Assembly (NCBI RefSeq): GCF_000725345.1
Contig: NZ_CP008852.1
Coordinates: 4,973,001 to 5,037,000 of the forward strand
From: Pelosinus sp. UFO1
GTDB lineage: Bacteria; Bacillota; Negativicutes; DSM-13327
DNA: 64,000 bases
Reading direction: 5' to 3'
The notes below the pieces were generated by a model. It saw only the letters and a program-made list of their open reading frames with translations, searched no databases and was not told the origin of the DNA. Positions 5,490 to 21,546 of the stretch are shown here, one piece after another. Within the stretch, counting starts at the first letter, position 1. Each line of letters opens with the position of its first letter. The translations under genes and the position numbers were made by a program.

Positions 5490-5508
5490 AACGTTGGAGG
5501 TGAAAATA

Positions 5509-5766: not shown

Positions 5767-5782
5767 ATGGGGGAATCGCATA

Positions 5783-6376: not shown

Positions 6377-6389
6377 AAGATCATAGGAT

Positions 6390-6433: not shown

Positions 6434-6552
6434 ATGGTAATAGAGGTCTATCAAATAGCAGCTATGGCAGTGAGTTGTATATTTTTGTGAAGAAGTAGAT
6501 TAATGTCGAAAAAACAGTGTATAGTGTTTTTGGTGAGATTTGTTGATCTCTT

Positions 6553-6638
6553 TAAATATATCTGGGAATCTATACCTTTTTCTAGAGGTAATGATTTGAA
6601 AAACCAGTTACTCTATAAAGAGTATTGAAGTAGGGTAA
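6553..6638 (+). repeat. dispersed upstream element, copy a
   Basis: The core GGGAATCTATACC, then TTTTTCTAGAGGTAATGATT, is shared with copies at 8486, 11490 and 17521. It contains an imperfect dyad TACCT-N8-AGGTA. After the core, GAAAAACCA and a weak hairpin around TACTCTATAAAGAGTATT resemble the tail of copy b. It lies about 130 bases before the MBL-fold hydrolase. The remainder of this 389-base gap shows no gene. Confidence 0.6.
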
Positions 6639-6707
6639 GATAAGTCTAAAGATCTGGATTTATCTATTAGGACAATCTCTAGGATGATTGTAGATAAGGA
6701 TTGTTGA

Positions 6708-6742
6708 AAAAAAACTAAGACACAACCACCGTCCCCGTTTCT
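6708..6742. repeat. REP-like GC-rich palindrome remnant
   Basis: CTAAGA and TCTTAG enclose a C-rich run containing ACCGTCCCCG, in an otherwise AT-rich gap. It resembles the GGGGACGG-type extragenic palindromes often seen in clostridial and Negativicutes genomes. It may be a degraded copy. Confidence 0.35.
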
Positions 6743-6765
6743 TAGAAAAATCAAAGGACAAGTTG

Positions 6766-7485
6766 GTGAATAGGATGCTTAAATTTATTGGTATTGGTAG
6801 TGCGTTCAATACTAAATGGGGTAATACAAGTGCTTTTATAAAAAAGAATAATGGCCTATTTCTGTTTGACTGTGGCGGAACCGTTTTTCACAGGCTGCAA
6901 GAATTAAGCATATTTGACGGGGTGAAGAATTTATATATTGTCATAACTCATACGCACCCTGACCATGTAGGAAGCCTTGGAGAAGTGATTTTTTATTGTT
7001 ACTATATCTTGGGATGTAAGCCGACTGTTTTTTTCCCTAATCGGGAATTAATAGAGAATTTCTTTGCATGCATCGGAGTTAGCAAGGATATGTACGTGCT
7101 TGATAGTCGTGAAAAGTCAGGTGTGATCGATAAAGACTTTGGAGATGTTAGCATTGAATTTTTGTCGGTTACACATGTAGAAACGATTCCTGCCTACGGT
7201 TTCATTATGAAGCAGAAAACAGGAGCATTCTATTATAGCGGAGATGCTAATAATATAAGCCAAGAAGTTCTAACTCGATTTCGAAATGGAGAGTTTGACC
7301 AAGTGTATCAAGATACTTGTGGACTAGATTATGAAGGAAATAGCCATATGTCGCTAAGGAAGTTGGAAGAAATTATTAGCATTGAGTTTCGGGATAAGGT
7401 GAACTGTATGCATCTAGATAACCATATTCATCCTAAAGAGGTCATAGACAAAGGTTTTAATGTGGTAGAAATATTTAGGGGATAA
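6766..7485 (+). CDS. MBL-fold metallo-hydrolase, RNase Z-like
   Basis: The protein has 239 residues. The metal-binding motif THTHPDHVG lies around residues 64-72. Later ligands appear as VTHVET, YYSGDAN and CMHLDNHIHP, so the fold looks complete. RNase Z-type and related metallo-beta-lactamase hydrolases share this layout, but the insert that holds the substrate in true tRNase Z cannot be recognised, so the substrate is open. GTG at 6766 was chosen because AAGGA ends seven bases before it. TTG 6763 and ATG 6775 are alternatives. It stands alone between accessory DNA and a terminator. Confidence 0.75.
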   Translation: MNRMLKFIGIGSAFNTKWGNTSAFIKKNNGLFLFDCGGTVFHRLQELSIFDGVKNLYIVITHTHPDHVGSLGEVIFYCYYILGCKPTVFFPNRELIENFFACIGVSKDMYVLDSREKSGVIDKDFGDVSIEFLSVTHVETIPAYGFIMKQKTGAFYYSGDANNISQEVLTRFRNGEFDQVYQDTCGLDYEGNSHMSLRKLEEIISIEFRDKVNCMHLDNHIHPKEVIDKGFNVVEIFRG

Positions 7486-7507
7486 CAGTGAGTCGGGAAG
7501 AAGAAAG

Positions 7508-7549
7508 AGTCAGTCCTACATTATTGAGTAATGCAGGACTGACTTTCGT
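7508..7549 (+). terminator. terminator-like hairpin after the MBL hydrolase
   Basis: AGTCAGTCCT (7508-7517) pairs with AGGACTGACT (7535-7544), and the arms extend inward. The T-rich tail is short (TTCGTT). Confidence 0.65.
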
Positions 7550-7567
7550 TATATTACGATGGTAATT

Positions 7568-7614
7568 AAAGCAGTAACTCAGAGCTGGTATTGCCAGCCC
7601 TGAGTTACTGCTTT
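7568..7614 (-). terminator. strong hairpin at the end of the 70-codon gene
   Basis: AAAGCAGTAACTCAG (7568-7582) pairs perfectly with CTGAGTTACTGCTTT (7600-7614), with a further small stem in the loop. It overlaps the stop codon of the minus-strand gene. The T-run is poor on both strands, so it may act in 3'-end protection rather than classical termination. Confidence 0.55.
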
Positions 7615-7825
7615 ATATGTGGGGCTGCAATAACCTTCCGTCTATAGTGTAGTAACCTGGATGATACGTTGCTCTGCCGTTTTTTATTCGATGTATATAT
7701 CTGCCATCAGGAGTTAAGCCCTTTAATGTACTGCTAAGATAAATACAACTCTTAGGGATGTGGCCTATGCAAACATTCGTATCATTTGGTGAATTTGTCA
7801 AATGGCCACAGACAGCACTTAGCAT
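7613..7825 (-). CDS. 70-residue orphan protein
   Basis: The ATG at 7825 is preceded by AAAGGAGGATTCTAAA, a near-perfect ribosome-binding site, so translation is likely. The protein is small and basic. It has three Cys (CGHL, NVCIGH, KSCIYL), several His and Tyr, and repeated motifs of the form DGRYIHRI and DGRLLQPHI. There is no signal peptide or membrane segment. I do not recognise a family. It lies alone in accessory DNA between an MBL hydrolase and a palindromic repeat. Cys and His spacing might support metal binding, but this is speculation. Confidence 0.55.
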   Translation of the reverse strand: MLSAVCGHLTNSPNDTNVCIGHIPKSCIYLSSTLKGLTPDGRYIHRIKNGRATYHPGYYTIDGRLLQPHI

Positions 7826-7996
7826 TTTAGAATCCTCCTTTTCAATATCGGGTTTTAATCATAAGAATATTTCAAGTTATTCATTAGTTTCTTTTAAGAT
7901 GGGTCTATTATTATAATGTATTGTACGATAGTAGCATCAAGAATATAACTCTTTTCATATAAGCAAAAGACTACGATTTTTGCCTGACTCAATAAG

Positions 7997-8057
7997 CAAG
8001 GGGACGGCAAAACATGTGGAAAGTAAGTTCATTTCCCCACGCTCTGACATCCCCTTG
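7997..8057. repeat. REP-like nested palindrome
   Basis: The outer arms are CAAGGGGA (7997-8004) and TCCCCTTG (8050-8057). The inner arms are GTGGAAA (8016-8022) and TTTCCCCAC (8032-8040). This forms a stable cruciform in AT-rich DNA with no ORF. The GGGGACGG segment resembles the remnant at 6708-6742 read in reverse. Confidence 0.5.
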
Positions 8058-8180
8058 TTTAATTTAAAAATATTTAACTGCCAATTCTTGCAATAAGAAC
8101 TGATTTTTAAGTCTAATTCGGAATAGTAAAATTGTAGGTCTTAGCGGAGGCTTAGCGTCTGCATGCAGTCAAGACGAAGC

Positions 8181-8220
8181 AAAGCGCATGTGTAGGTTAA
8201 AAAACCTCGCATGCGCTTTT
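8181..8220 (+). terminator. hairpin with T-tail, owner unknown
   Basis: AAAGCGCATG (8181-8190) pairs with CATGCGCTTT (8209-8218), and AGGTT/AACCT extends the stem near the loop. T residues follow. No gene precedes it within 350 bases on the plus strand, so it may end an unannotated transcript or a deleted gene. Confidence 0.5.
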
Positions 8221-8248
8221 AAAATTTCCCCTGAAACAAACTGTATGA

Positions 8249-8475
8249 TGGTTTCTTCTAGCCAGTGTTTCGGATAGAAGAAACCTCCTACAGGATGAAG
8301 ACGGGGGGATATAAATTGGTACTTGTCCAAGGGGGTATTTACGATCGTTTAAAAAATAATTAACGTCACCTAAAATGTCTCGCCAAACTTCAAAACCGTT
8401 TGCATCGGCTTAGCTGTCGCCGACAGGGATATCGGGAACTACCTTAGGGATGAAGCAGTGGGACTGCTCTTTTGT
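8249..8475 (+). other. structured non-coding stretch, possible IS200/IS605-type right end
   Basis: This lies in the 758-base gap between 7826 and 8584, where no ORF is supported. GGTTTCTTCTA (8249-8259) pairs with TAGAAGAAACC. Further on, CGGC/GCCG flank CTTAGCTGTC, then come a purine-rich GGGATATCGGGAACTACC and GATGAAGCAG. The segment ends in AGCAGT-GGG-ACTGCT with a T-rich tail (8454-8474). The last 90 bases recall the structured 3' ends of tnpB-type elements (GAAGCAG near the end), but no TnpB reading frame remains. It could equally be an unknown small RNA. Confidence 0.3.
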
Positions 8476-8485
8476 TTTGTTGGGT

Positions 8486-8576
8486 TAAAATATATTTGTC
8501 AATCTATACCTTTTGCTAGAGGCAATGATTTCAAAAACCACGTATTCTATAGAAAGATAGAATACGTGGTAGGGGG
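8486..8576 (+). repeat. dispersed upstream element, copy b
   Basis: AATCTATACCTTTTGCTAGA then GGCAATGATTTCAAAAACCA matches copy a closely. It is followed by a perfect 13-bp hairpin: CCACGTATTCTAT pairs with ATAGAATACGTGG around a six-base loop (8538-8569). The hairpin ends just before the ribosome site of the truncated lipase-like gene. Confidence 0.65.
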
Positions 8577-8584
8577 AATGTACT

Positions 8585-8947
8585 GTGGCAGTGACTAACG
8601 AAAAACATGGGGTAGTTTCTAATGCCTTATACCGTGAAGAGAACGATATTGATCTTACAAGTAACGGCTTTACCGAAATCGATTCGATGGGAAATGACAA
8701 GATCGGTTTCTATGCAGCAGCCTATAAACGAGGCGAAGATATTATCATTTCCTACCATGGTTCGGAGGATAATAAACCCCAGGAATGTGAGGACGCATTG
8801 GCATATTATAGTTATATTCGAAAAAGATATCCTGGGGCGAATATTATGACAGGTCATTCCCTAGGTGTAACGATGGTACAATACGTCGATAATACAATGG
8901 CTATTAGAGATGAAAATCAGGTATATGGGCCTGCTCAGTGGGTGTAA
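8585..8947 (+). CDS. truncated lipase-like (alpha/beta-hydrolase) protein
   Basis: The GTG start has AGGGGGA eight bases upstream and gives 120 residues. It shows YHGSED (about residue 56), which matches the oxyanion-side strand of class 3 lipases. MTGHSLGVTMVQYV (about residues 95-108) carries the GxSxG nucleophile elbow. The protein stops 13 residues later, well before the acid and His of the catalytic triad. The family normally exceeds 200 residues. The stop codon lies inside a terminator hairpin, so the truncation and its transcription end coincide. It is probably a gene remnant, although the upstream elements are intact. Confidence 0.55.
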   Translation: MAVTNEKHGVVSNALYREENDIDLTSNGFTEIDSMGNDKIGFYAAAYKRGEDIIISYHGSEDNKPQECEDALAYYSYIRKRYPGANIMTGHSLGVTMVQYVDNTMAIRDENQVYGPAQWV

Positions 8948-8959
8948 GCAGGCTTTTTT
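8929..8959 (+). terminator. terminator overlapping the end of the lipase-like gene
   Basis: GCCTGCT (8929-8935) pairs with AGCAGGC (8947-8953), then six T. The left arm is coding sequence and the stop codon is in the loop. Confidence 0.8.
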
Positions 8960-9087
8960 ACCCCGGAATGAAAACTGACACTATTGCTGTAAGACAACGA
9001 TCCAGGGTTACTGGAATAAGTAAATAAAAAACAAACACTTACTCCGCATCTATTGTTGGAGAAGGTTTGTTCTATACGAATCTCTCT

Positions 9088-9125
9088 GCCGTCTTTACCT
9101 TCAAGGTGAGACGACTCTTTTTTTT
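9088..9125 (+). terminator. terminator-like hairpin upstream of the diguanylate cyclase
   Basis: GTCT and ACCTT pair with AGGT and AGAC between 9091 and 9112, followed by eight T at about 9117-9125. Near-identical hairpins follow at 11447 and 17478. No gene lies between it and the previous terminator at 8929, so it may be an attenuator or a relic. The rest of 8960-9324 shows only a CTGGTT/AACCAG hairpin at 9149-9164 and the site at 9233. Confidence 0.6.
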
Positions 9126-9232
9126 GAAGCAGGGTAAAGCTAAACGACTGGTTTCCCAACCAGATAAAATCAAGTAAGTAAAGGCTTGTAGATTATAGTT
9201 GACTGTGTAAATAGCAGAGGAAAATTGAATAA

Positions 9233-9241
9233 TTTGTCGAA
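9233..9241 (+). promoter_or_regulatory. possible Spo0A box
   Basis: TTTGTCGAA matches the Spo0A-binding consensus TTTGTCRAA at every position. It lies 84 bases before the diguanylate cyclase start. A nine-base match can occur by chance in 64 kb, so support is weak. Confidence 0.3.
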
Positions 9242-9324
9242 ATAAAGAAGAATAATGCAAATGTGCTACGATGAAGTCGTCGAGTTTAAATTTTAGTTTA
9301 CGTAAGTGAGGGGGTGGCTTTTGA

Positions 9325-11412
9325 GTGCTTTTTGCCAAAATAGTACATAATGTTACTAAGCTGTGGAACAGACAAACTTTGAGGAAAACACTGAGTGTTT
9401 GTCTTGTTTGTATGACGATTTTTCCCTTGTTGCTATCTATGTTAATAACTGAAAATAAAAGTGAGAAAATTCTGACTAAATTAGCGTTTAATCAGAATCG
9501 CGATATTGCAGAGCAGACTGCTGAAGATATTGATCAGATGTTTAGTGAAAAAATTAAGGTGCTACGGATTGCCGTAAATACAGCTGAGATAAAGTCGATG
9601 CTGCCTGATAAGCAAAATGCCTTACTTAAGGCCATTACTAAGGCGGATGCTGATATTCAAATTGCGATTATAGCTGATAGTGCAGGCAATCAGATTGCTC
9701 GATCGGATGGGCGTGTAGTTGATGATGCGATTACGTATCGCGATCGGGAATATTTTCAAAGAATAAAACGAATCGGCGAGACAGTGGTTTCCGATGTTAT
9801 TATTGCGAAGAGCACTGGTTATCCGGGTGTTGTTATTGCTGAGCCAATCAAGGACGAAAATCAGCAACTGGTAGGCGTGCTGATTGTAAACGTGGAATTG
9901 AGATCCATTGTTGACCGGATTGACCAGATTAAGATTGGCCAAGCTGGTTATGCCTATCTGGTTAATGGAGATGGACGTATTTTGCTGCACCCAGATCGGG
10001 GAATGGTCGAGCAGGATGTCTCCTGGGTTGCACCAGTTAAGGCTGTGATGGATAAACAAACCGGTTTGGTAGAGTATGAATACAAGAAACAAAAGAAATG
10101 GGCTGCTTTCAGTTATATACCGCAAACGGGATGGGGCTTAATTGTTCAGCAGCCAGTAGAAGAAGCTTTAGCAGATGTAAGCGATGTTAAACGGACAACA
10201 TGTATGATTACGGTATTCTCCGCTGTTCTTGCAAGTTTAATTGGTATTGCCGTTGCCAATATGATGACAAGGCCAATCACTGATATATCAGAGGCCGCTG
10301 CCCGTTTAGCCAAAGGGGATTTGGATGCCAGAAGCTCGGTTACAACACGAGACGAAATAGGACAGCTAGCAGCTACGTTTAACTCTATGGCTGATAAGTT
10401 AGGTACAAGAACCAGTGCCTTGCTAGAAAGTGAAGAGAAATATCGCTCTTTGGTGGAGAATATCAGCATTGGTATCTACCGGGAAACAGGAGATGCCAAG
10501 TCCTTTATTAAATATGCAAATCCTGCACTTCTAAAGATGCTGGGATATGAGTCTATGGATGAACTATTAACGATTCCAGTATCAACGACATTTTGGAGTC
10601 AGGAAGAGTTCACTGCAGTTAGTGAATTGGTAGAGCAGGAAGGCACTGTGAAAAATAAAGAAATTCGACTGCGAAGAAAGGATGGAACAGCCCTCTGGTG
10701 TTCTATGACGGCGCTGAAGCATTATAATCATCAAACGGACACGTTTTGTATTGACAGTATGATTGAGGATATTACTGAACGCAAAATGGCAAACGAAAAA
10801 TTGTGTCAAGCTCACGCTGAGTTAGAACGGAAAGTAGCAGAGCGAACTAGAGAGCTGACGGTATTAAATAGAGAACTATGCCGGATCTCATTGCAAGATG
10901 GTCTTACTTGCGTCGCCAATCGGCGCTATTTTGACGAATTTCTAGAACGGGAATGCCAAGGAGCTAAACGAGAGCAAACGTCAATTGCTTTGATTTTGTT
11001 AGATGTCGATTTTTTTAAGTTGTATAATGATACTTATGGACATGTCGCAGGAGATGATTGTCTTAGACAAGTTGCCACTGCGCTAGGTGAGGGCGCGAAA
11101 CGTGGGACTGATCTAGTCGCGCGTTATGGTGGAGAAGAATTCGCTGTAATTTTGCCTGACACCGATCAAGCTGGAGCTGTTAAGGTAGGAGAACGTATTC
11201 TAACTCAGGTTAGAGAGTTGGCTATTCGACATAGGATGTCGCCAGTGGCTGAATTCGTTACAGTAAGTCTTGGTATTGCTGTCGCTATCCCTAGGGCAGA
11301 CTTGACACCAGAAAAGATGATTCTCGCCGCCGATCAAGCTCTTTACCAGGCGAAGCATTTAGGGCGAAACCAATTGCAGTTAGCGGGTGAACTAGATAGT
11401 ACCGAGTTTTAG
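9325..11412 (+). CDS. membrane diguanylate cyclase: dCache-HAMP-PAS-GGDEF
   Basis: The 695-residue sensor has a transmembrane helix near 20-42, an extracytoplasmic dCache-type domain to about 275 and a second helix near 292-312. HAMP (about 313-365), PAS (about 375-490, ending DITERK), a coiled segment and GGDEF (about 525-690) follow. The active-site motif is GGEEF at 602-606. The inhibitory site RGTD lies at 593-596, five residues before it, so the enzyme should make c-di-GMP under product inhibition. The signal is probably a small ligand bound by the Cache domain. The start is GTG with GAGGGGG upstream. The gene is monocistronic, bounded by two terminators. Confidence 0.92.
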   Translation: MLFAKIVHNVTKLWNRQTLRKTLSVCLVCMTIFPLLLSMLITENKSEKILTKLAFNQNRDIAEQTAEDIDQMFSEKIKVLRIAVNTAEIKSMLPDKQNALLKAITKADADIQIAIIADSAGNQIARSDGRVVDDAITYRDREYFQRIKRIGETVVSDVIIAKSTGYPGVVIAEPIKDENQQLVGVLIVNVELRSIVDRIDQIKIGQAGYAYLVNGDGRILLHPDRGMVEQDVSWVAPVKAVMDKQTGLVEYEYKKQKKWAAFSYIPQTGWGLIVQQPVEEALADVSDVKRTTCMITVFSAVLASLIGIAVANMMTRPITDISEAAARLAKGDLDARSSVTTRDEIGQLAATFNSMADKLGTRTSALLESEEKYRSLVENISIGIYRETGDAKSFIKYANPALLKMLGYESMDELLTIPVSTTFWSQEEFTAVSELVEQEGTVKNKEIRLRRKDGTALWCSMTALKHYNHQTDTFCIDSMIEDITERKMANEKLCQAHAELERKVAERTRELTVLNRELCRISLQDGLTCVANRRYFDEFLERECQGAKREQTSIALILLDVDFFKLYNDTYGHVAGDDCLRQVATALGEGAKRGTDLVARYGGEEFAVILPDTDQAGAVKVGERILTQVRELAIRHRMSPVAEFVTVSLGIAVAIPRADLTPEKMILAADQALYQAKHLGRNQLQLAGELDSTEF

Positions 11413-11446
11413 GCGAATAGCTTATCAAGTAAATATCCAACCCTTT

Positions 11447-11484
11447 GCCGTCTTTACCTTTCAAGGTAGACGGCTCTTTTTTTT
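11447..11484 (+). terminator. terminator of the diguanylate cyclase gene
   Basis: GCCGTC (11447-11452) and ACCTT pair with AAGGT and GACGGC (to 11474), with a two-base bulge. A T-rich run follows at 11475-11484. Confidence 0.85.
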
Positions 11485-11489
11485 GAATA

Positions 11490-11545
11490 AATTAAAATGT
11501 ATTTGGGAGTCTATACCTTTTGCGTTAATATGGGGCGGATCTAAG
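11490..11545 (+). repeat. dispersed upstream element, copy c (partial)
   Basis: AAAATGTATTTGGGAGTCTA followed by TACCTTTTGCGTTA aligns with copies a, b and d. The AGAGGTAATGATT half is lost or diverged. It sits directly after a terminator of the same sequence family as the one before copy d, about 150 bases upstream of the tolC-type gene. Confidence 0.55.
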
Positions 11546-11694
11546 TGTAATACTGTGTATGGACGTTGTATTTGTAAACGCTGAAAGAGTGGTAAGCGTT
11601 ATCCTAATATGTACATAATTGTAATAAAACTGAGTAAAAGCTGTCACCTTATATTGGTATAATTTAACGAAATCAATTTATTGGAGGTTGCTTT

Positions 11695-12987
11695 ATGAAC
11701 GTATATCAGCGATGTGTTGTAATGTTAATTCCTGTAATAGTATTCATGTCCTTTAGTCAATCCGTATTCGCGGCTCCTGTAGAACTATCCTTGGAAGATA
11801 GTATCACTTTAGCCTTAAAAAATAACTATGATATAAAATATGCGAAATCGGCTAGAGAGAAGTCTTATTGGGCTGTCAAAGAAGCAGCAAAGGCTAAAGG
11901 GGTTTCTATCAAATATGCTCATACAGACAGTCGTTACAATACTCCCCCTTCCTCTACATCATCGGTATACTCATATACCAGTAATTTTGACAACCAGATA
12001 TCCCTCAGCCTCCCCATTTATTCCGGTGGTAATTTAGAGAGCGTGATTGATCAGGCTAAACTTGATCTCAAAGTAGCCGATCTTGATGTCGACGCAGCGA
12101 AACAACAGCTTAAACTAACTGTCGTTACGGACTATTTCACCGTAATGGATTACCGTAATGCATTGCAAGTTGATCAAGAGACAGTAAATAACTATGTAAA
12201 TCACCTCAACCTGGTTAAGGCTAAGTTTGATTTAGGTTTGGTAGCTAAGACAGATATTTTATCAAGTCAGGTTAATCTGGCACAGGCTCAGGATAGCTTA
12301 ATTAAAGCAGAGAATAATTACAATAATGCGGTAGCGGCGCTTAATAATGCAATTGGATTATCTCATGGTACCGAGCTAAAGCTGAAGGACGAATTCAAAT
12401 ATGAAAAATATCCCTTAACGCTGGAAGAATGTATTCAATATGCCCAAATTCATCGACCGGAAATAGTCCAGTATGAAGCGAAAGTCGCTAGCGCGCAATA
12501 CGGTGTGAAAAGTGCCAAGAGTGGCTATCTGCCAACCGTCGATTTGACTGCTGAGCAAGATTGGTATGATAGTCATTTACCCGGTTCTAAGAACAGCAAT
12601 TGGCTGTTGAAACTTACTACTTCAATAAACGTTTTTGATTCCGGTGTAACCAACGCCAAAGTGAAACAAGCACAGCATAACGTGGACATGGTATTGGATC
12701 AGGCTGGGAAGGAACATGACTCCATCTTGTTGGATGTGCGTAAATACTATCTAAGTATGTACGAGGCAGAAAAACGAATTGAGACAAATAAAGTATCAGT
12801 GAATCAAGCGGAAGAAAATCTAATGATTCAGAAGACTCGATATGATGTGGGAGTAGGTACAAATCTTGACCTGCTTGATGCTGTATTATCCCTTGATTCA
12901 GCCAAGAAAGATCATATTCAAGCTTTATACGACTACAATACCAACAAAGCGGGGTTGGAACAAGCCATGGGTTTATTAGTGAAATAA
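11695..12987 (+). CDS. TolC-family outer-membrane efflux protein
   Basis: The 430-residue protein has a signal peptide (residues 1-26, cleavage near VFAAP). Two tandem OEP repeats follow, each with an LxxAIxxALxNN-type start (SLEDSITLALKNNYD and TLEECIQYAQIHRPE) and long coiled-coil helices. The family forms trimeric alpha/beta barrels that exit through the outer membrane, so the cell must be diderm. The ATG is preceded by TTGGAGGTT. It is the first gene of a three-gene operon with the adaptor and pump. Its length is normal. Confidence 0.92.
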   Translation: MNVYQRCVVMLIPVIVFMSFSQSVFAAPVELSLEDSITLALKNNYDIKYAKSAREKSYWAVKEAAKAKGVSIKYAHTDSRYNTPPSSTSSVYSYTSNFDNQISLSLPIYSGGNLESVIDQAKLDLKVADLDVDAAKQQLKLTVVTDYFTVMDYRNALQVDQETVNNYVNHLNLVKAKFDLGLVAKTDILSSQVNLAQAQDSLIKAENNYNNAVAALNNAIGLSHGTELKLKDEFKYEKYPLTLEECIQYAQIHRPEIVQYEAKVASAQYGVKSAKSGYLPTVDLTAEQDWYDSHLPGSKNSNWLLKLTTSINVFDSGVTNAKVKQAQHNVDMVLDQAGKEHDSILLDVRKYYLSMYEAEKRIETNKVSVNQAEENLMIQKTRYDVGVGTNLDLLDAVLSLDSAKKDHIQALYDYNTNKAGLEQAMGLLVK

Positions 12988-13031
12988 TTGTAAAAGATGC
13001 GTAGTAAGGTTGTAATCAGGAGGAATAGCAA

Positions 13032-14201
13032 GTGAATAGTAAACATTCAAATAAATTGTATTTTGGACTAATAATTTTGGTTGTTTTGATAGTTACTGCT
13101 GTTGTACGCAGCGGTTTGCTATCAAAAACTGAAGCGACTCAAATACCGAAGGCAGTAGAAGTAAAAGCTATGCAGGTAATACAGCAGGATGCTCGGACTA
13201 ACTACGAATTTGTAGGGCAAGTAAAATCGAAAAATGAAGTAAAAATAATGTCTAAAGTGTCTGGCAATATAGTGGAGAAGATGGTGAATGGCGGAGATAG
13301 CGTCTATAAAGGACAGCCATTGTTTCGAATTGATAATAAGCAATACAGGTCAGCCATAAATTCCGCTAGGGCGACCCTCAATAAGTCAAAGGCGACACTT
13401 AACAATGACCAAAAAGATGTGGAAAGATACAAGCAATTAACAGCTATCAATGGCATTGCTCAGCAAACGTTAGATACGCAGGTAGCCCAAGCAGAAGAAG
13501 ACGCTGCTACGGTCGCAGTTAACCAAGCTAGCTTGCAACAGGCAATCGAGGATGAACAAGATACTCTGATACTCTCACCTGTTGATGGCCGTATTGATGT
13601 GAATGATGTCAGCATGGGTTCTTATGTAGTAGCGGGGTCTACGACAATGGCTACAGTATCATCCGTAGATCCAGTGTGGGTGCAATTTAGTATGAGTGAA
13701 AATGAATATTTAGATCTTGTCCAGTTAGGAAACGGTACTTTACCAAGTACTTTTAAGGATAATCTTAAACTTACTCTTAGTAATGGAACCCAATATCCGT
13801 TGTTAGGGCGCATCGAACAAGTCGATAAAGGCGTTACTGATACAACAGGTACAATTACGCTAAAAGCCTCTTTTAGTAATCCGCAAAACATTCTCATGCC
13901 TGGTATGTTTGCTAGGGTAGTAACTCAGGGAGCATTACATCAGGGGGCTTTACTAATCCCGCAACGGGCAGTAACAGAATTGTTAAATAAGACGTTTGTT
14001 ACCGTAGTAACAGACGAGAATAAGGCAGAGAGCAGAGAAGTGACGATGGGAGAACGGATTGGCAATCTATGGTTAGTACAAAATGGACTAACTGTTAATG
14101 ATCGCGTTATTGTGGAAGGTACTAACAAAGTTAAAGCGGGAACCGCATTACAAGTAACGATGATACAAGCGGATGAATTGCAAATTCCGGCTAAGCGATA
14201 G
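13032..14201 (+). CDS. RND efflux periplasmic adaptor (membrane fusion protein)
   Basis: The 389-residue AcrA/MexA-type protein has an N-terminal anchor helix (about residues 8-27). A biotinyl-lipoyl half-motif follows (KIMSKVSGNIVEKMVNGGDS), then an alpha-helical hairpin, the second lipoyl half (LILSPVDGRID) and beta-barrel plus membrane-proximal domains. It bridges the inner-membrane pump and the TolC channel. There is no lipobox Cys, so it is anchored by the helix. The GTG start has AGGAGGA upstream. It lies 44 bases after the TolC gene and 12 bases before the pump gene. Confidence 0.92.
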   Translation: MNSKHSNKLYFGLIILVVLIVTAVVRSGLLSKTEATQIPKAVEVKAMQVIQQDARTNYEFVGQVKSKNEVKIMSKVSGNIVEKMVNGGDSVYKGQPLFRIDNKQYRSAINSARATLNKSKATLNNDQKDVERYKQLTAINGIAQQTLDTQVAQAEEDAATVAVNQASLQQAIEDEQDTLILSPVDGRIDVNDVSMGSYVVAGSTTMATVSSVDPVWVQFSMSENEYLDLVQLGNGTLPSTFKDNLKLTLSNGTQYPLLGRIEQVDKGVTDTTGTITLKASFSNPQNILMPGMFARVVTQGALHQGALLIPQRAVTELLNKTFVTVVTDENKAESREVTMGERIGNLWLVQNGLTVNDRVIVEGTNKVKAGTALQVTMIQADELQIPAKR

Positions 14202-14213
14202 GGGGGATTTTGA

Positions 14214-17200
14214 ATGGCACAATTCTTTATAAAACGACCTGTTTTTGCGATCGTTTTATCGATTATCATAACAATAATAGGCGTGACCGCTGCAGTAAAT
14301 TTACCTATAGCTCAGTATCCTCAGATCTCTCCGCCAACAGTTTCGATTAGTACAACGTACCAAGGAGCAAACGCTGAGGTCATAGATCAAACTGTAGCTC
14401 AGATCATTGAACAACAAGTCAATGGAGTGGAAGGAATGTCTTATATGTCTTCCACTAGTACAGATTCAGGTTCCTATTCGTTAAATGTTCAATTTGAGTC
14501 TGGGATCAATGCTGATACTGCAGCTGTACAGACTCAAAATCGGGTATCAGAGGCGACGTCAGCACTGCCAAGTGATGTTCAGACCGCCGGCATTACGACC
14601 AGGAAATCATCTCAAGATATGTCCCTGATTTTTAATCTCTATTCGGACGATGATACTTATGACGTAAATTTCTTGAAAAATTATGGCAGTATTTATCTTC
14701 TCGATCAGATAAAACGTGTCAGTGGTGTGGGAGAAGTATCGGAATTTGGTTCTGATTATGGTATGAGAATATGGTTGCAACCTGAGAAGATGGCAAATCT
14801 TGGAGTTTCTATAACGCAAGTGACTAATGCCATTACAAATCAGAATATCCAAGCACCTGCTGGCGCTATTGGACAAATGCCCGAAGATTCTCAGCAGGAA
14901 TTTCAATATAGTACCAGAATAAAAGGACGTTTATCTACTCCCAAAGAATTTGGGAATATCATTGTCACCGCCAAAGGAGACGGTTCGTTTATTCGTATAA
15001 AAGATATAGCGCGGGTGGAATTAGGAAGTAAATCCTACACGAATGCAAGCATGGTAAATGGTCATACTAGTGCAGGGTTTGCTGTTAAGCTAACAAGTGA
15101 TGCCAATGCTTTGCAGACAATTGGTAATGTAAAGACAGTTATTGCAAAGGCGTCAGAAAAATTCCCTGTTGGTATGCAATATAAAATTGTCGTAGATAAT
15201 ACTGAATTTATTAGGCAATCAATGATTGAAGTTATTAAAAGCTTTGCCGAAGCAATGCTGCTAGTTTTAGTTGTTGTATTTCTTTTCTTGCAGAGCTGGC
15301 GTGCTACATTGATTCCCATGCTAGCCATTCCAGTATCCTTGCTAGGAACATTTGCTGCTTTTACTGCATTAGGATTTACCATCAATACATTAACCTTATT
15401 TGCCATGGTACTTGCCATAGGGCTGGTAGTTGATGATGCGATTGTTGTTATTGAGGCTGTCGAGCATCATATGCGATACTCAGGACTTTCGCCGCTAGAC
15501 GCTACTAAGCGGGCGATGAGTGAAGTATCTGGACCAGTCGTTGCCATTGCCTTTGTATTAGCTTCCGTATTCATCCCCGTAGCTTTTTTTGGCGGGATGA
15601 TGGGGATTTTATACAAGCAATTTGCCTTAACCATTGCTGTAGCAATGGCTTTATCAGCTCTTATCGCTTTGTCTCTTACACCGGCTCTTTGCATATTATT
15701 ACTGAAGCCCTATGATTCAAATGCGCATAGTGGAATGGTCGGTAAATTTTTTGAACAGTTCAATCACTGGTTTGAAGGAAGAACTGAGAAATATGGAAAT
15801 GGTTTAATAAAGGTCATTTCCAAAGCGCGTTTATGCATGGTCCTATTAGTCGTTTTAAGTCTCTCGATTGGAGGATTGTATAAATTAGTGCCTACTTCTT
15901 TTGTGCCTGATGAAGATCAGGGATTCTACATAACATCAATTTCTTTGCCTGAGGCAGCGAGTCTAAATCGTACAACGGCAGCCATGAAAGAGTTTTTAAG
16001 CAAGGTAAGCTCTCAACCAGGAGTTGCGAATGTTATGTCCATAACGGGGTTAGATTTATTAGGGGGAGGATCTAAATCCAGTGCAGGGGCAATGTTTGTT
16101 TCATTGGATTCGTGGGAGCAGAGAAAAAGTCCCCAATTATTAGTAGGAGCCCAAATTGGGCAAACCTTTATGAGCGGCTCACATTTGCCTGAAGGATCTG
16201 TGATTGCTTTTGCTCCTCCTGCCCTACCAGGACTTGGTATGGTGGGTGGATTAACGTTAATGTTGGAAGATCAAAATGGGGGTTCATTGGATGATCTGGA
16301 TGATGTGTCCCAAGCTTTTGTCACTGCAGCGAAAGAAAGGCCTGAAATTGGATCGATTTCTTCAAATTTTAAATCCGATACACCAGGCTATCAATTTGAG
16401 GTCGACCGGGAAAAGGCTGAGAACATGGGCGTGGCCGTTGGAGATGTATTTACTGCCTTACAGGTGTTTCTCGGGGGATCGCAGGTTAATGATTTTAATG
16501 AATTTGGTCGTACGTACAAGGTTATTGTACAGGCAGAAACGGCTTTCCGTAGTGATATTAATGCGACACGGTACTTGTTTGTAAAAAGTTCTTCTGGGGC
16601 AATGGTGCCATTAAATACTCTGATAAAACCTACGAGTATCAATGCACCCGCGACCATCGTAAGATATAATGGTCTCAAAGCGGTTAAAATCAGTGCAACG
16701 CAGGCGTCGGGGTATAGTTCAGGTCAGGCAATGACTGCCTTGGAAGAAGTTGCAAAAACATTACCTAGTGGCTATTCTTATGAATGGTCAGGTCAAAGTC
16801 GTGAAGAAAGATTGTCAGGTAGTCGCACCCCCATCGTGTTTGGTATGGCGATTACATTTGCATTTTTATGTTTAGCTGCTCTGTATGAAAGTTGGAGTGT
16901 TCCCTTTGCAGTGTTGCTTACCGTTCCGGTAGGAATATTTGGTGCGTTCTTATCTCAGTATGCACGCAACTTAGAAAATAGCGTATATATGCAAATCGCT
17001 TTAGTTATGCTAATTGGCTTGGCAGCGAAGAACGCTATATTAATTGTAGAGTTTGCTAAAGTAAGAGTCGATAATGGTATGGATATCGTTCAGGCCGCCA
17101 TTGAAGCAGCCAAGATCCGTCTACGTCCTATTATTATGACCTCATTAGCGTTTATTATTGGTTGTGTTCCTTTGGCGGTTGCTACCGGTGCTGGCGCTGG

Positions 17201-17351
17201 TGCCAGAAATTCTATGGGAACGGCAGTGGTAGGGGGTATGTTTACAGCTACAGCACTAGGAATATTCTTAATACCCGTTCTCTTTGTAGTGGTAGAAAAG
17301 ATAACCGAAAAAGTTAATCGATTACGTAAAGGGAGAACTATAGACGTATAA
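14214..17351 (+). CDS. RND multidrug efflux pump, HAE1/AcrB family
   Basis: The 1045-residue protein has the two-fold RND layout with 12 transmembrane helices and two large periplasmic loops. The start FFIKRPVFAIVLSIIITIIG is canonical for hydrophobe/amphiphile exporters. The proton-relay motif GLVVDDAIVVIEAVEHH in TM4 carries the Asp pair, and GLAAKNAILIVEFAK in TM10 carries the Lys. NLPIAQYPQISPP is also conserved. It should export drugs, bile-salt-like compounds or other amphiphiles by proton antiport. It completes the operon, and a terminator follows at 17381. The substrate cannot be told from sequence. Confidence 0.94.
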   Translation: MAQFFIKRPVFAIVLSIIITIIGVTAAVNLPIAQYPQISPPTVSISTTYQGANAEVIDQTVAQIIEQQVNGVEGMSYMSSTSTDSGSYSLNVQFESGINADTAAVQTQNRVSEATSALPSDVQTAGITTRKSSQDMSLIFNLYSDDDTYDVNFLKNYGSIYLLDQIKRVSGVGEVSEFGSDYGMRIWLQPEKMANLGVSITQVTNAITNQNIQAPAGAIGQMPEDSQQEFQYSTRIKGRLSTPKEFGNIIVTAKGDGSFIRIKDIARVELGSKSYTNASMVNGHTSAGFAVKLTSDANALQTIGNVKTVIAKASEKFPVGMQYKIVVDNTEFIRQSMIEVIKSFAEAMLLVLVVVFLFLQSWRATLIPMLAIPVSLLGTFAAFTALGFTINTLTLFAMVLAIGLVVDDAIVVIEAVEHHMRYSGLSPLDATKRAMSEVSGPVVAIAFVLASVFIPVAFFGGMMGILYKQFALTIAVAMALSALIALSLTPALCILLLKPYDSNAHSGMVGKFFEQFNHWFEGRTEKYGNGLIKVISKARLCMVLLVVLSLSIGGLYKLVPTSFVPDEDQGFYITSISLPEAASLNRTTAAMKEFLSKVSSQPGVANVMSITGLDLLGGGSKSSAGAMFVSLDSWEQRKSPQLLVGAQIGQTFMSGSHLPEGSVIAFAPPALPGLGMVGGLTLMLEDQNGGSLDDLDDVSQAFVTAAKERPEIGSISSNFKSDTPGYQFEVDREKAENMGVAVGDVFTALQVFLGGSQVNDFNEFGRTYKVIVQAETAFRSDINATRYLFVKSSSGAMVPLNTLIKPTSINAPATIVRYNGLKAVKISATQASGYSSGQAMTALEEVAKTLPSGYSYEWSGQSREERLSGSRTPIVFGMAITFAFLCLAALYESWSVPFAVLLTVPVGIFGAFLSQYARNLENSVYMQIALVMLIGLAAKNAILIVEFAKVRVDNGMDIVQAAIEAAKIRLRPIIMTSLAFIIGCVPLAVATGAGAGARNSMGTAVVGGMFTATALGIFLIPVLFVVVEKITEKVNRLRKGRTIDV

Positions 17352-17380
17352 ACCCCAATTTATTATTAGAGTAAGGCAAT

Positions 17381-17421
17381 AAGAAAGGCTTGGGCGATGT
17401 AAAATCCAAGCCTTTCTTAAA
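17381..17421 (+). terminator. terminator of the efflux operon
   Basis: AAGAAAGGCTTGG (17381-17393) pairs with CCAAGCCTTTCTT (17406-17418). Confidence 0.8.
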
Positions 17422-17477
17422 TCGCCTCTATAACACATAGTTTAATGGTTGTGAAATTTATTTAGCAGTGCCTTATT

Positions 17478-17512
17478 GCCATCTTTACCTTTTGGGGGTA
17501 GATGGCTTTTTT
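17478..17512 (+). terminator. second terminator hairpin
   Basis: GCCATC (17478-17483) pairs with GATGGC (17501-17506) and the inner TACC pairs with GGTA. T residues follow to 17512. It belongs to the same sequence family as the hairpins at 9088 and 11447. Confidence 0.75.
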
Positions 17513-17520
17513 AATAACCA

Positions 17521-17575
17521 AAAAATATGTATTTTGGGAATCTATACCTTTCGTTAGAGGTAATAATATTGAAAA
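17521..17575 (+). repeat. dispersed upstream element, copy d
   Basis: TTGGGAATCTATACCTTTCG then TTAGAGGTAATAATATTGAA matches copies a and b at most positions. It follows the terminator at 17478 at the same spacing as copy c follows 11447, so terminator plus element form a composite repeat. It lies about 190 bases before the CsgG-like gene. The rest of the 409-base gap is AT-rich with no ORF. Confidence 0.6.
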
Positions 17576-17760
17576 TCATCTATAATTGGAAAGCAAATGG
17601 AAATCCAAAGGATGGTGTTTTTTAATTAATACCACCGAGATGTATATTTCTTTTTTTATTTTCCCTGAGACTGCTTTCCTAGTTTAGTAGAGATAGTCAT
17701 CTTTAGGAAAATAGTAAAGTAATATAAAAAGTTATAAATTAAGGAGTTGTAATTGTATTT

Positions 17761-18651
17761 ATGTTTAAAAAATCAAAAAAAGTATCTTTTCTAGTAGTGG
17801 TTGCTCTTTTATGTTTTATGTTTTCTTCAGTAATGGTAGCTGGTGCCTCACCAAAACGTATTGGTATTACCAAATTTGAAACAAACAACTTTACAGTAAG
17901 GGTTCCTGGCGGCGGTCATTATGATATTGGGTTAGGGGCTACGGATATGTTAACGAACGAGTTAGCAAAAAACAAGAGCTTTGAAGTAATCGAGAGGGAT
18001 CAAATTAGGTCGGTACTCGATGAACAAGCTTTTGGTGCATCAGGTGCTCTTGATGATAGTACAGCTGCTCAAATAGGCAAGTTAGTGGGTTTGAAATATA
18101 TTGTATACGGAAAAATTCTTTCGGCAGGGGCTGAAGAAAACCGGACTTCTGTCATGGGTGTAGCTGTGAATCAATTAAATATAAAGGTACAAATTAGTGT
18201 TCGCATGATTGACTCTACTACAGGTTCTATCGTTTGGGCAGACCAAGTGGATGGGAATGTGAAAAAAAGTGGTGGAGCAATACAAGGGATTGGCTCGGTA
18301 CAGACCGGTGTATCCGCTAGTGTTTATGACGAAGCATTGGGAATTGCAATTAAAAAAATTGCCACTAATATTAGCAAGCAATCCCCTCTTGAAGGTTGTG
18401 TAGCAAAAGTAAGCGGTCGTAAATTGTATCTGGACATTGGTAGAGAGCAAGGTGTTCAACCTGGTCAGTCCTTCATGGTATACAAAGAAGGCGAAACAAT
18501 TACTAATGCCGCTGGCGAAGTAATTGGCGTAGAAAAAGGCGATATTTGTAAAGTTAAAATTTCGAGTGTAGAAGGACAAATGTCAGTGGCTACTATTGAA
18601 GGCAATGGTGCTGCTCTAGTTGAGCAAGGCAATAAGGTTCGCTCACTCTAA
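17761..18651 (+). CDS. CsgG/FlgO-like outer-membrane assembly protein with FlgT-type C-terminal domain
   Basis: The 296-residue protein has a signal peptide (about residues 1-30, ending VAGAS). A CsgG-like domain follows (about 33-205), with KRIGITKFETN, DMLTNELAKNKSFEVIERDQ and LVGLKYIVYGKI. The C-terminal 85 residues (EGCVAKVSGRKLYLDIGREQ and GVQPGQSFMVYKEGE) look like the C-terminal domain of the flagellar protein FlgT. CsgG-like proteins form or decorate outer-membrane pores; the FlgO branch belongs to the sheathed-flagellum outer ring. The ATG lies 14 bases after AAGGAG, a long spacing. It is first in a three-gene cluster. Confidence 0.7.
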   Translation: MFKKSKKVSFLVVVALLCFMFSSVMVAGASPKRIGITKFETNNFTVRVPGGGHYDIGLGATDMLTNELAKNKSFEVIERDQIRSVLDEQAFGASGALDDSTAAQIGKLVGLKYIVYGKILSAGAEENRTSVMGVAVNQLNIKVQISVRMIDSTTGSIVWADQVDGNVKKSGGAIQGIGSVQTGVSASVYDEALGIAIKKIATNISKQSPLEGCVAKVSGRKLYLDIGREQGVQPGQSFMVYKEGETITNAAGEVIGVEKGDICKVKISSVEGQMSVATIEGNGAALVEQGNKVRSL

Positions 18652-18676
18652 TTCTTGTAGATAGGAGGTGGCGGTC

Positions 18677-19774
18677 ATTAAAAAGAAATTTTGTTGCTGT
18701 TTGGTAATCGTATTTACATTATTGTTGTGTAATATAGCCTGGGCCAACAGCGTAACTGTTGAGGGAAATGGTCCAACACGGGACGATGCCATTCGTGATG
18801 CTCTTCGTATAGCAGTAGAACAAGCTGTGGGGGCATTAGTTGATTCGAATACAATATCGAACAATAATCAGATTATCTCAGATGAGATCTACGTCCATTC
18901 CCAGGGATTTGTGCAAGATTATCACATCATTAGTGAACAAAGTAATCGAGGATCTTATACCGTTTCAGTTAACGTTACTGTAGATACAGAACCCCAATCT
19001 GCTCTTTATAACAAATTGCAAAAGTTAAAGCTTATTGAGGTAATGCTAAGAGATCCACGAATTGCTGTTATTATTCCTGAATTTCACCAGGCATCGTCAA
19101 TTGCCAATTCTGCAAGTGAGACGGTAGTTATACAAAAACTTCGAGATGCAGGCTTTAAACATGTCATTGATGCTCGTCAATTACAGCATGTTCAGGAAAA
19201 TCAATTGGTTCGTGCTATTTTGGATGATGATTTTGAATCAGCCAAAGTATTAGCTACTACAGAACAGCTTGATTACGTAATTGTTGGTGAGGCGACGAGT
19301 CAGTATGTTGGTGCTGTATATAGCAGTAGTATAAAGTCCAGTCGTGCCCATATTTCGGCAAAGCTGTTAAAAGTAGATACTGGTGAAATAATTGCTGCCC
19401 AGGGTGCTGACGCAAGTGGTGCTGATATTACACCGCTACTATCATCTAAAAAAGCACTAGCTGCATCAGGTGAAAAAATAGGCAGTTTTATGGTTCGTAA
19501 GCTTATGGAGTATGCTGGTGATTCGAATAAAACAGTAACGATTTTAATTAAACGGGCTAGTTTTGACAAAATTAGTTCGATTCAAAATTCTTTAAAACGA
19601 ATTTCCGGTGTTCAATCCGTTACCTTACATTCTTATAATAGTGGAATTGCCCAAATTGATGTTAATTATACTGGAGCACCGAAGCTATTAGCAGATGGGC
19701 TGCAGCAGACAGAAGGCATTTCCTTAGATATTCTCGGTATTACGAATAGCTCAATTGAGGTAATACTTAGGTAA
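18677..19774 (+). CDS. FlgT N-terminal-domain protein
   Basis: The protein has about 365 residues with a signal peptide (KKKFCCCLVIVFTLLLCNIA, cleavage near AWAN). SVTVEGNGPTRDDAIRDALR and IAVEQAVGALVD then match the N-terminal domain of the flagellar H-ring protein FlgT, ending near residue 115. The remaining region resembles the CsgG/FlgT middle fold. I chose ATT at 18677 because AGGAGG ends eight bases before it. The in-frame GTG at 18668 overlaps the ribosome site itself. It is the second gene of the cluster, probably periplasmic, binding the flagellar basal body or an envelope machine. Confidence 0.65.
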   Translation: MKKKFCCCLVIVFTLLLCNIAWANSVTVEGNGPTRDDAIRDALRIAVEQAVGALVDSNTISNNNQIISDEIYVHSQGFVQDYHIISEQSNRGSYTVSVNVTVDTEPQSALYNKLQKLKLIEVMLRDPRIAVIIPEFHQASSIANSASETVVIQKLRDAGFKHVIDARQLQHVQENQLVRAILDDDFESAKVLATTEQLDYVIVGEATSQYVGAVYSSSIKSSRAHISAKLLKVDTGEIIAAQGADASGADITPLLSSKKALAASGEKIGSFMVRKLMEYAGDSNKTVTILIKRASFDKISSIQNSLKRISGVQSVTLHSYNSGIAQIDVNYTGAPKLLADGLQQTEGISLDILGITNSSIEVILR

Positions 19775-19821
19775 GTAAGTTTTTTGTAAAATCTGTTAAA
19801 AAATAGTAAGGGGTGTATTGT

Positions 19822-20688
19822 ATGGAAAAAAGGATTAAACTTTTATGTACAGCTTTTTTATTGATGCTGGTGAGTTGTGTTCTAGTTCCATCAGTGACTA
19901 TCGCTCAAGGGGGGAGAAGCATTGGATGGGATCAAGGAGCACAAGGTACTATTCAAGCAGTAGGTTTTGGTGTGCCTCCGAACAATGTTACTTCTTCCTC
20001 GCAAGGTCGCCTGTTGGCGAGAAGAGCTGCCATTGTCGACGCATATAGAAATTTGCAGGAAATGATTCAAGATGTTCAGATTAATTCTGAGACAACCATG
20101 CAAAATTTGGTGGCTACCAATGATGTCGTTAGCACAAAGGTATCAGGAATTATTAGGGGAGCGCGGATTGTTGAAGAAGTTGAAAAGGCTGATGGAACGT
20201 ATCAAGTTGTTGTAAGTATTAATATGTACGGACCTAATAGTTTGGGTGAAATTGCGTATAATGCTACCAAACCTAGCGAAATTCAACAATTCCCTGTACC
20301 CTCTACTGATTATAAGGGCGACCAATTAGCTGGAAATATAACAATCAACGGTACTGGCTATACTGGTGTTATTGTTGATGCCCGAGGTCTTGGACTAGAG
20401 CCTACTTTTTCTCCTGTGATTCTTGATGAAAATGGACGTAGCATATACGGTAGTATGTATATTAATGCTGATTATGCTATTTCCCAAGGCATGGTGGATT
20501 ACACGTCAACCTCTGATGCCCGAGAAGGTCAATCCCGGGCAGGGGTTAAGGCAATCGTAGTAAAAGCTATTCGGGTTACAGGGAACAACTGTAATGTAGT
20601 GATTAGTAAATCGGATGCAGATAGAATTCTAGCTGCAAATGAATCTACGGATTTCTTAAGAAAGTGCGCCGTAGTATTTGAAAGATAA
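19822..20688 (+). CDS. LPP20/FlgP-like envelope protein
   Basis: The ATG at 19822 (MEKRIKLLC) has AAGGGG eight bases upstream and gives 288 residues. A signal peptide ends near VTIAQG; the Cys residues in it do not form a clear lipobox. Residues about 50-115 contain ARRAAIVDAYRNLQEMIQ and later GARIVEEVEKADGTYQVVVS, typical of the LPP20 fold found in FlgP. The rest (about 140-288) is a beta-rich domain of unknown role. In Vibrio and Campylobacter, FlgP forms an outer-membrane-associated flagellar ring or basal disk. The gene closes the FlgO/FlgT/FlgP-like cluster and is followed by a terminator. Confidence 0.65.
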   Translation: MEKRIKLLCTAFLLMLVSCVLVPSVTIAQGGRSIGWDQGAQGTIQAVGFGVPPNNVTSSSQGRLLARRAAIVDAYRNLQEMIQDVQINSETTMQNLVATNDVVSTKVSGIIRGARIVEEVEKADGTYQVVVSINMYGPNSLGEIAYNATKPSEIQQFPVPSTDYKGDQLAGNITINGTGYTGVIVDARGLGLEPTFSPVILDENGRSIYGSMYINADYAISQGMVDYTSTSDAREGQSRAGVKAIVVKAIRVTGNNCNVVISKSDADRILAANESTDFLRKCAVVFER

Positions 20689-20734: not shown

Positions 20735-20775
20735 TTGAGCCGTCTTATCTTTAGAGTAAGACGGCTCAACTTTTT
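20735..20775 (+). terminator. terminator of the CsgG/FlgT/LPP20 cluster
   Basis: TTGAGCCGTCTTA (20735-20747) pairs perfectly with TAAGACGGCTCAA (20757-20769), followed by C and five T. Confidence 0.9.
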
Positions 20776-20856: not shown

Positions 20857-21546
20857 TTGGTTAATATTTTGTTGGTAGGCGGCGGTAGAAGCGGCGTTGC
20901 AATATTAGAAATGGCGAATCAAGTGCCACAAATGGAGATTGTAGGTGTGGTAGATGTAAAGACGGACGCTGTAGCAATTAAGATGGCACAAAACATGGGA
21001 ATCCGTACATTTACTGATGTTCGAGATGGGCTAAAAATGCCAAATGTGAATGTAGTATTAAATATCACCGGAAACCAACAGGTCAATCGTTTGATTGAAG
21101 AAAACAAGACTTCAAATGTTAAAGTTGTGGACGACTTTATTACGGGTATGTTATACCACCTTATTAAATCTCAAGTCTTAATGAGTGAAGAGTTGAATGA
21201 GAAGGTTGTTGTTCTTTCTGAATCTGTCAATGAAGCTAAAAACCATATTAATAATACTCATGAAGTAATTGGTTTTATTAATAAAGTATCACAACAAACA
21301 AATCTTTTAGGTTTAAATGCTGCGATTGAAGCAGCGCGAGCTGGTGAACATGGAAGAGGATTTGCGGTAGTAGCTACAGAAGTTCGTAAGTTGTCAGAGG
21401 ATAGTGTAGAGGCGACAAAAAAGATAAATGACATCTTAGGAAATATTGAAGCTTCTATGCAGCATATTATTGTTGGGATTGAAGAAACTGCCGCGGTGGC
21501 GGAAAAGCATACGAAACGAGAATTGATTACGGGTGAAAAAATATAA
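20857..21546 (+). CDS. Rossmann-fold domain fused to a chemoreceptor signalling domain
   Basis: The 229-residue protein has no transmembrane segment. Residues 1-110 begin with a strand and the dinucleotide-binding loop GGGRSG (8-13), then VVDVKTD at the second strand end, as in Gfo/Idh- or homoserine-dehydrogenase-like NAD(P) folds. Residues about 115-229 are a short MCP signalling hairpin with the conserved tip [20 protein letters not shown]. This suggests a soluble chemoreceptor reading NAD(P)(H) or another nucleotide-linked signal and acting on CheA/CheW. The receptor hairpin is much shorter than in classical MCPs. The start is TTG with GGGGGCGGAG upstream. The gene is monocistronic. Confidence 0.8.

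Follow-up and report, generated by a model that had tools for sequence, protein, structure and literature searches.

Must a set of proteins related to the ring around a flagellum serve a flagellum, or can it have a more general place in the outer membrane? The question is raised by three consecutive genes of the diderm Firmicute Pelosinus sp. UFO1, which encode the exported proteins P1, P2 and P3 and lie in a stretch of 64,000 nucleotides (the window; contig NZ_CP008852.1, positions 4,973,001 to 5,037,000). In Vibrio, FlgO, FlgP and FlgT make up a ring that surrounds the flagellum, and a preliminary description of the locus proposed a rearranged version of it with a divided FlgT, used for flagella or for another envelope machine. 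According to predicted models, the parts of FlgT are spread over two proteins, with its middle domain in both. Of the two proposed uses, the other machine fits better; the flagellar option is weakened, with a class-wide association remaining. The reading preferred here, to which we would give about an even chance, is that the trio forms, independently of flagella, a ring or collar in the periplasm at a channel of the outer membrane, the Vibrio H-ring being its flagellar relative. Related operons are present in bacteria with no detectable flagellin, which makes it probable that the ring kit serves the outer membrane more generally.

Should FlgT- and FlgP-like proteins act as a set without flagella, the ring kit would be a general envelope part. 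Its origin could then be tested in a comparison of flagellated and non-flagellated Negativicutes, and diderm Firmicutes would gain a candidate for the collar of an outer-membrane machine. FlgT, FlgP, CsgG and Tp0624-type domains are known already. In the open-access literature searched, no description of the trio in Negativicutes was found, nor one of a FlgT arrangement shared between two proteins and accompanied by a FlgP-like protein, or of its occurrence without flagellin. The nearest report is the use of FlgP from the Negativicute Acetonema longum as a query in PMC5758724. PMC6375700 describes the H-ring as a component of flagella that accompanies sodium-driven motors in the Gammaproteobacteria studied there.

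FlgT-like domains in P1 and P2

The open reading frames of all three genes were confirmed on the plus strand, as first described, and their export signals were judged by eye; signal-peptide and lipobox calls given below rest on simple patterns, not trained predictors. P1 (17,761 to 18,651, 296 amino acids) consists of a CsgG/LpoB/FlgT_M-type domain (residues about 29 to 209) and a FlgT_C-like domain (about 210 to 296) which also resembles the C-terminus of TsaP. It exceeds the Pfam cut-offs for CsgG (E 1.9e-19, 70.2 against 20.8 bits) and LpoB (E 9e-11, 42.3 against 22.3 bits), and matches FlgT_M (E 7e-6, 26.8 bits, cut-off 31.2) and FlgT_C (E 2e-5, 25.3 bits, cut-off 27) below theirs. Among 11 rows of P1 relatives (E up to 0.01), CsgG occurs in all and FlgT_C in eight (best E 7.6e-9), which upholds the earlier assignment of P1 as a CsgG-like protein with a FlgT_C-like domain.

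P2 (18,668 to 19,774, 368 amino acids), which contains the motif EGNGPTRDDAIRDALR quoted in the preliminary description, begins with a FlgT_N/SHS2 domain (about 26 to 106), followed by a FlgT_M/TolB-N/PelC-type domain (about 125 to 287) and a C-terminal domain (about 289 to 367) with the order beta-alpha-beta-beta-alpha-beta-beta. The FlgT_N match of P2 itself is under the cut-off (E 4e-4, 21.2 against 28.8 bits), yet 15 of 18 rows of its relatives match this family (E up to 0.01, best 1.7e-6), and the FlgT_N-like character claimed for P2 was thus borne out. No window protein reaches the curated Pfam cut-off of FlgT_N, FlgT_M or FlgT_C; the best FlgT_M match among the relatives has E 4.6e-7. 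FlgO (PF17680) was found in two of the 18 P2 rows (best E 6e-4). For P1, no FlgO match was listed at E up to 10, the HMMER filters dropping weak matches, so that a FlgO identity of P1, implied by the title of the preliminary description, is not supported.

Structure comparison had been set beforehand as a test of the FlgT_N and FlgT_C similarities, and both were found. AlphaFold2 models were obtained for P1 (pLDDT 70.9, pTM 0.56) and P2 (pLDDT 78.6, pTM 0.51), the former resembling the middle and C-terminal parts of FlgT and the latter its N-terminal and middle parts. Foldseek placed FlgT first for both. With P1 the E-values were 6.9e-18 for 8z5n chain 0, presumably the FlgT of this LPHT-ring entry, and 1.1e-17 for 3w1e, followed by CsgG at 2.6e-7; with P2 they were 3.3e-11 for FlgT and 4.4e-7 for CsgG. 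With VIA-align 2, FlgT again ranked first for P1 (Z 15.1 with 8z5n chain 0; Z 14.7 and rmsd 9.4 over 244 with residues 94-353 of 3w1e), TolB and PelC being at Z about 13.5 and LpoB at Z 11.6 (rmsd 2.4 over 114). The same aligner matched P2 to FlgT residues 1-265 (Z 10.9, rmsd 9.2 over 214), and TolB, PelC and CT253 entries, which match the middle domain alone, outranked FlgT, at rank 16. Families missing from the lists of this aligner were not counted as evidence. The high rmsd values mean that the content and order of domains are supported and their spatial placement is not.

The arrangement can be compared with the FlgT of the Vibrio H-ring (3w1e, 8z5n). P2 follows the N-then-middle order and P1 the middle-then-C order. 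No protein of the trio combines N-terminal, middle and C-terminal domains in one chain; unlike FlgT, the trio uses two proteins, each with a middle domain, and P2 has an additional C-terminal domain of another kind. When 21 pairs of sub-domain profiles were compared with hhalign, only two were related, namely the middle domains of P1 and P2 (probability 96, E 3.5e-9) and the N-terminal SHS2 domains of P2 and P3 (E 3.6e-14), the other 19 not being significant (best probability 8%). The operon is therefore made of two repeated domain types and three differing C-terminal domains. Of the divided FlgT proposed earlier, a FlgT-like architecture distributed between two proteins, next to a FlgP-like third, is supported; a neat division in which FlgT_C was transferred to a CsgG or FlgO partner is not, because the middle domain is present in P1 and P2 alike.

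Other known proteins share single parts of this architecture. The middle domains of P1 and P2 have the fold of CsgG, GNA1162 and LpoB, from which the two proteins differ in mostly having no lipobox and in carrying FlgT-type extra domains. The C-terminal profile of P1 matched LysM/TsaP chains (3.5e-8 and 1.2e-7; TsaP at the type IV pilus secretin in 3jc8, and 6ve2, labelled only as LysM domain-containing protein) ahead of FlgT (1.9e-5), so that this domain is not specific to flagella; P1 carries the CsgG/FlgT_M domain in place of LysM. P2 matches the model of Leptospira LipL46 over residues 37-347 (E 2.1e-12), but at 46.5 bits against a cut-off of 400, and the window P2 has no lipobox by pattern.

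A FlgP-like partner

P3 (19,822 to 20,688, plus strand) was described earlier as LPP20/FlgP-like, and this was confirmed. Its SHS2 domain (about 43 to 132) is above the Pfam LPP20 cut-off (E 7e-9, 36.5 against 25.9 bits), and the single sequence matches a chain of the Campylobacter jejuni motor structure 9hmf at E 1.9e-12. With a profile, 9hmf_C, which is presumably FlgP, was matched at 1.6e-20 and the FlgP of 8z5n at 4e-11. P3 and FlgP share the same segment between helix and strand: the profile aligned to 9hmf_C free of gaps from the SHS2 helix to the strand that follows it, an agreement at the level of sequence in which the hairpin itself is not seen. According to PMC12222027, the ring-forming hairpin of the FlgP family sits in this helix-to-strand insert, and ring formation correlates with the insert.

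P3 differs from FlgP in an extra C-terminal domain and in the apparent rarity of lipid attachment: FlgP is annotated as a lipoprotein, whereas 33 of 34 P3-type proteins have no lipobox by the simple pattern; the signal peptide of the window P3 contains LVSC. The extra domain matches Treponema pallidum Tp0624 (5jir; E 7.8e-5) in a region that corresponds, by offset, to D2. P3 has no OmpA-like domain, unlike Tp0624; D1-D2 pairs without an OmpA domain occur in nearly 50 proteins, as reported in PMC5104382.

Occurrence with and without flagellin

The distribution of P2 was surveyed in 250 genomes of Negativicutes, with flagellin as a stand-in for flagella. Full-length P2, defined by a cut of our own (best E at most 1e-35), was found in 66 genomes, including one (G241) with P2 in two pieces; at E 0.001, 85 genomes match, the other 19 more weakly. 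Flagellin was found in 121 genomes. Both occur together in 53, P2 only in 13, flagellin only in 68 and neither in 116 (odds ratio 7.0, p 1.4e-9), an association that is confounded by ancestry. Within family f11, P2 is present in 36 of 56 flagellin-positive and four of five flagellin-negative genomes (p 0.65), showing no association, and in family f15 none of 57 genomes has flagellin and nine have P2. In family f1, to which Pelosinus sp. UFO1 belongs, all ten genomes have flagellin and three have P2; in f23, P2 occurs in five of 11 genomes with flagellin and not in the single one without. Five of the eight genomes of the genus itself have flagellin and no full-length P2. Conservation of the trio with flagella across the Negativicutes, a check suggested at the outset, thus gave a divided answer, with flagellin missing from 13 of the 66 P2 genomes and no association in f11 on one side, and the class-wide odds ratio on the other.

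Completeness is 98% or more in eight of the 13 genomes that have P2 and no flagellin. A tree of 69 P2 rows contains 12 from hosts lacking flagellin; these fall among the rows of flagellated hosts and need five changes, at least four of which are forced by supported branches, so they are not one relic lineage. The genus Pelosinus holds P2 of two separate clades in this tree, and genome G106 has three copies from two separate clades. The type IV pilus secretin was considered as a correlate and proved uninformative, being present in 238 of the 250 genomes, among them 11 of the 13 with P2 and no flagellin.

The trio as a proposed ring or collar, and other readings

By analogy with the Vibrio rings, P1, P2 and P3 most likely come together as a ring or collar at the periplasmic face of the outer membrane. 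One ring may consist of the SHS2 domains of P3 and P2, and a second one, of the PelC/CsgG/FlgT kind, of the two middle domains, while the C-terminal barrel of P1, common to FlgT and the pilus protein TsaP, could touch the outer-membrane channel inside the collar. Where flagella are present, the surrounded channel could be the L-ring; elsewhere it would have to differ and might be a type IV pilus secretin or other exporter. A more tentative idea, possible but rather doubtful in our judgement, is that the trio represents a present-day form of a general ring module of the outer membrane, which predates flagellar H-rings and is more widespread than they are. Vibrio FlgT would then have arisen by fusion of P2-like (N-middle) and P1-like (middle-C) genes within the common middle domain, and been recruited to the flagellum with a FlgP-like partner.

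Several observations weigh against a flagellum-independent collar built in this way. Both models are of moderate quality, whole-length FlgT matches have rmsd values of about 9 Å or more and low TM-scores, and the middle-domain fold is widespread (TolB, PelC, GNA1162, LpoB). In the monomer model of P2, the residues that follow the SHS2 helix are helical and do not form a hairpin, and P2 is solitary in 17 of 66 survey loci. The class-wide association with flagellin is strong (P2 in 53 of 121 genomes with flagellin and in 13 of 129 without), and it extends to the 110 genomes that belong to none of the four families examined separately (nine of 44 against none of 66). Named P2 loci come from 18 genomes, 16 of which have flagellin and for which completeness and base rate are not known; these loci were drawn from 21 (L052, L054 and L057 were omitted as survey genomes), six of the 18 genomes also belong to the survey, and ten of the other 12 have flagellin.

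These associations are what would be expected of a flagellar accessory ring of diderm Firmicutes, equivalent to the H-ring and placed round the L-ring, with the flagellin-negative copies as relics or repurposed forms. FlgT and FlgP as the best structural or sequence relatives point the same way, as do the L-ring gene of the genome, its single LPP20 match, situated in the trio, and the use of an Acetonema longum FlgP as a query mentioned above. We nevertheless consider this explanation unlikely. Full-length P2 is missing from 68 of 121 flagellin-bearing genomes, five of the genus included; f11 shows no association; the nine P2 genomes of f15 keep the gene without flagellin, several of them in enlarged clusters; the flagellin-negative P2 are scattered in the tree; and no flagellar gene was recognised next to the trio. 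Unlike Vibrio FlgT, the trio lies far from the flagellar genes of its own genome.

Two further explanations start from the middle domain of P1. A regulator of peptidoglycan synthesis of the LpoB type, in which P1 would activate a penicillin-binding protein and P2 and P3 serve as scaffolds, would account for the LpoB matches above in sequence and structure and for a NamZ muramidase gene that is the second gene downstream of the trio. It is nonetheless very improbable: the LpoB structure match spans the common fold alone, P1 has no lipobox by pattern and is far under the cut-off of the NCBIfam LpoB equivalog (45.7 against 110.55 bits), and the muramidase gene lies beyond a terminator-like hairpin and another gene. 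An export route for surface proteins or amyloid, with P1 as a CsgG-like pore and P2 and P3 as periplasmic accessories, would agree with the CsgG domain in every P1 row and with large exported proteins near some loci, such as an inverse autotransporter at L012 and proteins of 885 and 884 amino acids at L014 and L075. CsgG is a lipoprotein, whereas a lipobox was found by a permissive pattern in only three of 27 P1 proteins, and the best match of P1 is FlgT, not CsgG. The exported neighbours vary by host and none stands beside the window trio, which leaves the export route a slim chance as well. Curli-type secretion, the first reading of P1, was weakened by the same best match and rare lipoboxes, and autotransporter or adhesin neighbours were dropped as a link, being near few loci only.

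Gene order at related loci

For the comparison of gene order, 68 loci were fetched from 65 of the 66 survey genomes (the locus of G241 was not among them), and two (L122, L127) in which the simple gene caller gave no P2 were left out. Gene calls are longest open reading frames, and neighbours outside the tool-based scans were named by eye. Within 3.5 kb of P2, both P1 and P3 were found in 26 of the 66 loci, only P1 in 18, only P3 in five and neither in 17, so that P1 accompanies P2 in 44; seven of the 26 complete trios come from flagellin-negative genomes. Further genes that continue these clusters on the same strand with gaps below 200 bases (such a chain can pass a terminator, as it does in the window) are enriched for signal peptides according to a crude predictor (54 of 157 against 60 of 511).

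The nearest named P2 is 64% identical and belongs to a Pelosinus metagenome-assembled genome (L049); it is identical to the P2 of survey genome G043, which is placed in another family in the survey taxonomy. Outside the class, the order is P3-P1-P2 in Nitrospira (L058) and P2-P3-P1 in Hydrogenispora (L065), and in Deltaproteobacteria P2 occurs with GNA1162-like and CsgG genes. A GNA1162-like gene adjoins P2 at L060 (25.2 bits, just under the cut-off of 25.9) and at L066 (46.6 bits), where a P3-like gene is also present. Beside these extra-class loci no flagellar gene was recognised, mostly by eye. In Pelosinus sp. UFO1 the only CsgG and LPP20 matches (E up to 0.01) lie in the trio, and flgH, the L-ring gene, is about 506 kb away. 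In genome G026 the contig of the trio also carries flagellins at a distance of about 20 kb, the closest flagellin among the matches listed, and a secretin at about 5 kb.

Some loci are larger or of another kind. At L015, from a flagellin-negative genome, eleven same-strand genes stand in a row (3,582 to 13,975), mostly with signal peptides by eye, and include two P2, three CsgG-type genes and one P3, the others being unassigned. Enlarged clusters were also seen at L083, L086, L088, L106 and L113, and at L111 from a flagellin-positive genome. In an f11 group, solitary P2 genes lie beside, or one gene from, ylxM- and ffh-like genes identified by eye (L016, L089, L090, L098, L099, L101, L102, L103, L105, L107 and L110), a second conserved P2 context without P1 or P3. 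The large exported proteins of L014 (3,606 to 6,263) and L075 are directly upstream of P2 and have an autotransporter-like C-terminus by eye; the 885-residue protein of L014 gave no Pfam match at E up to 0.001. Pelosinus sp. UFO1 also encodes a second, diverged FlgT_N-like exported protein of 267 amino acids (G000:C1 3,813,166 to 3,813,969; L133 7,167 to 7,970, minus strand), which adjoins another small exported protein and is about 290 kb from the nearest flagellin among the matches listed.

Layout of the operon and its neighbours in the window

The three exported genes form a short operon, with gaps of 16 bases between P1 and P2 and 47 bases between P2 and P3, and its G+C content (39.7%) is close to that of the window (39.9%). 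For P3 (291 or 288 amino acids), a start at the ATG at 19,822 is more likely than at the GTG at 19,813. The GTG start of P2 is overlapped by the ribosome-binding site AGGAGGTG (18,663 to 18,680), and an alternative ATT start at 18,677 is possible. The terminator-like hairpin of 14 pairs lies 3' of P3 on the plus strand (20,735 to 20,769); its stem is long, and the count of one such site is not above chance (2.1 +/- 1.6 in shuffles). No sigma-28-like promoter was found at 17,340 to 17,760, upstream of the trio, and matches across the whole window are at the expected number (23 against 22.6).

A mobile origin of the trio was considered and set aside, as there was no phage DNA match and the one match to a plasmid protein, in Deinococcus, was distant. 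The genes immediately upstream of the trio, on its strand (11,695 to 17,351), encode an outer-membrane factor, a membrane-fusion protein and, by eye, an RND-type pump; this efflux operon was rejected as a partner of the trio, as it is missing beside L049. At L104 the P2-P3 pair adjoins MacA-, MacB- and outer-membrane-factor-like genes, again by eye. Downstream of the hairpin, a gene at 20,857 to 21,546 encodes a protein of 229 amino acids that combines a weak match to an NAD-binding Rossmann domain (GFO_IDH_MocA 2e-4 and DapB_N 3e-4, both under the cut-off) with a chemoreceptor signalling domain (1.6e-27) and is possibly a soluble receptor sensing nucleotide or redox state.

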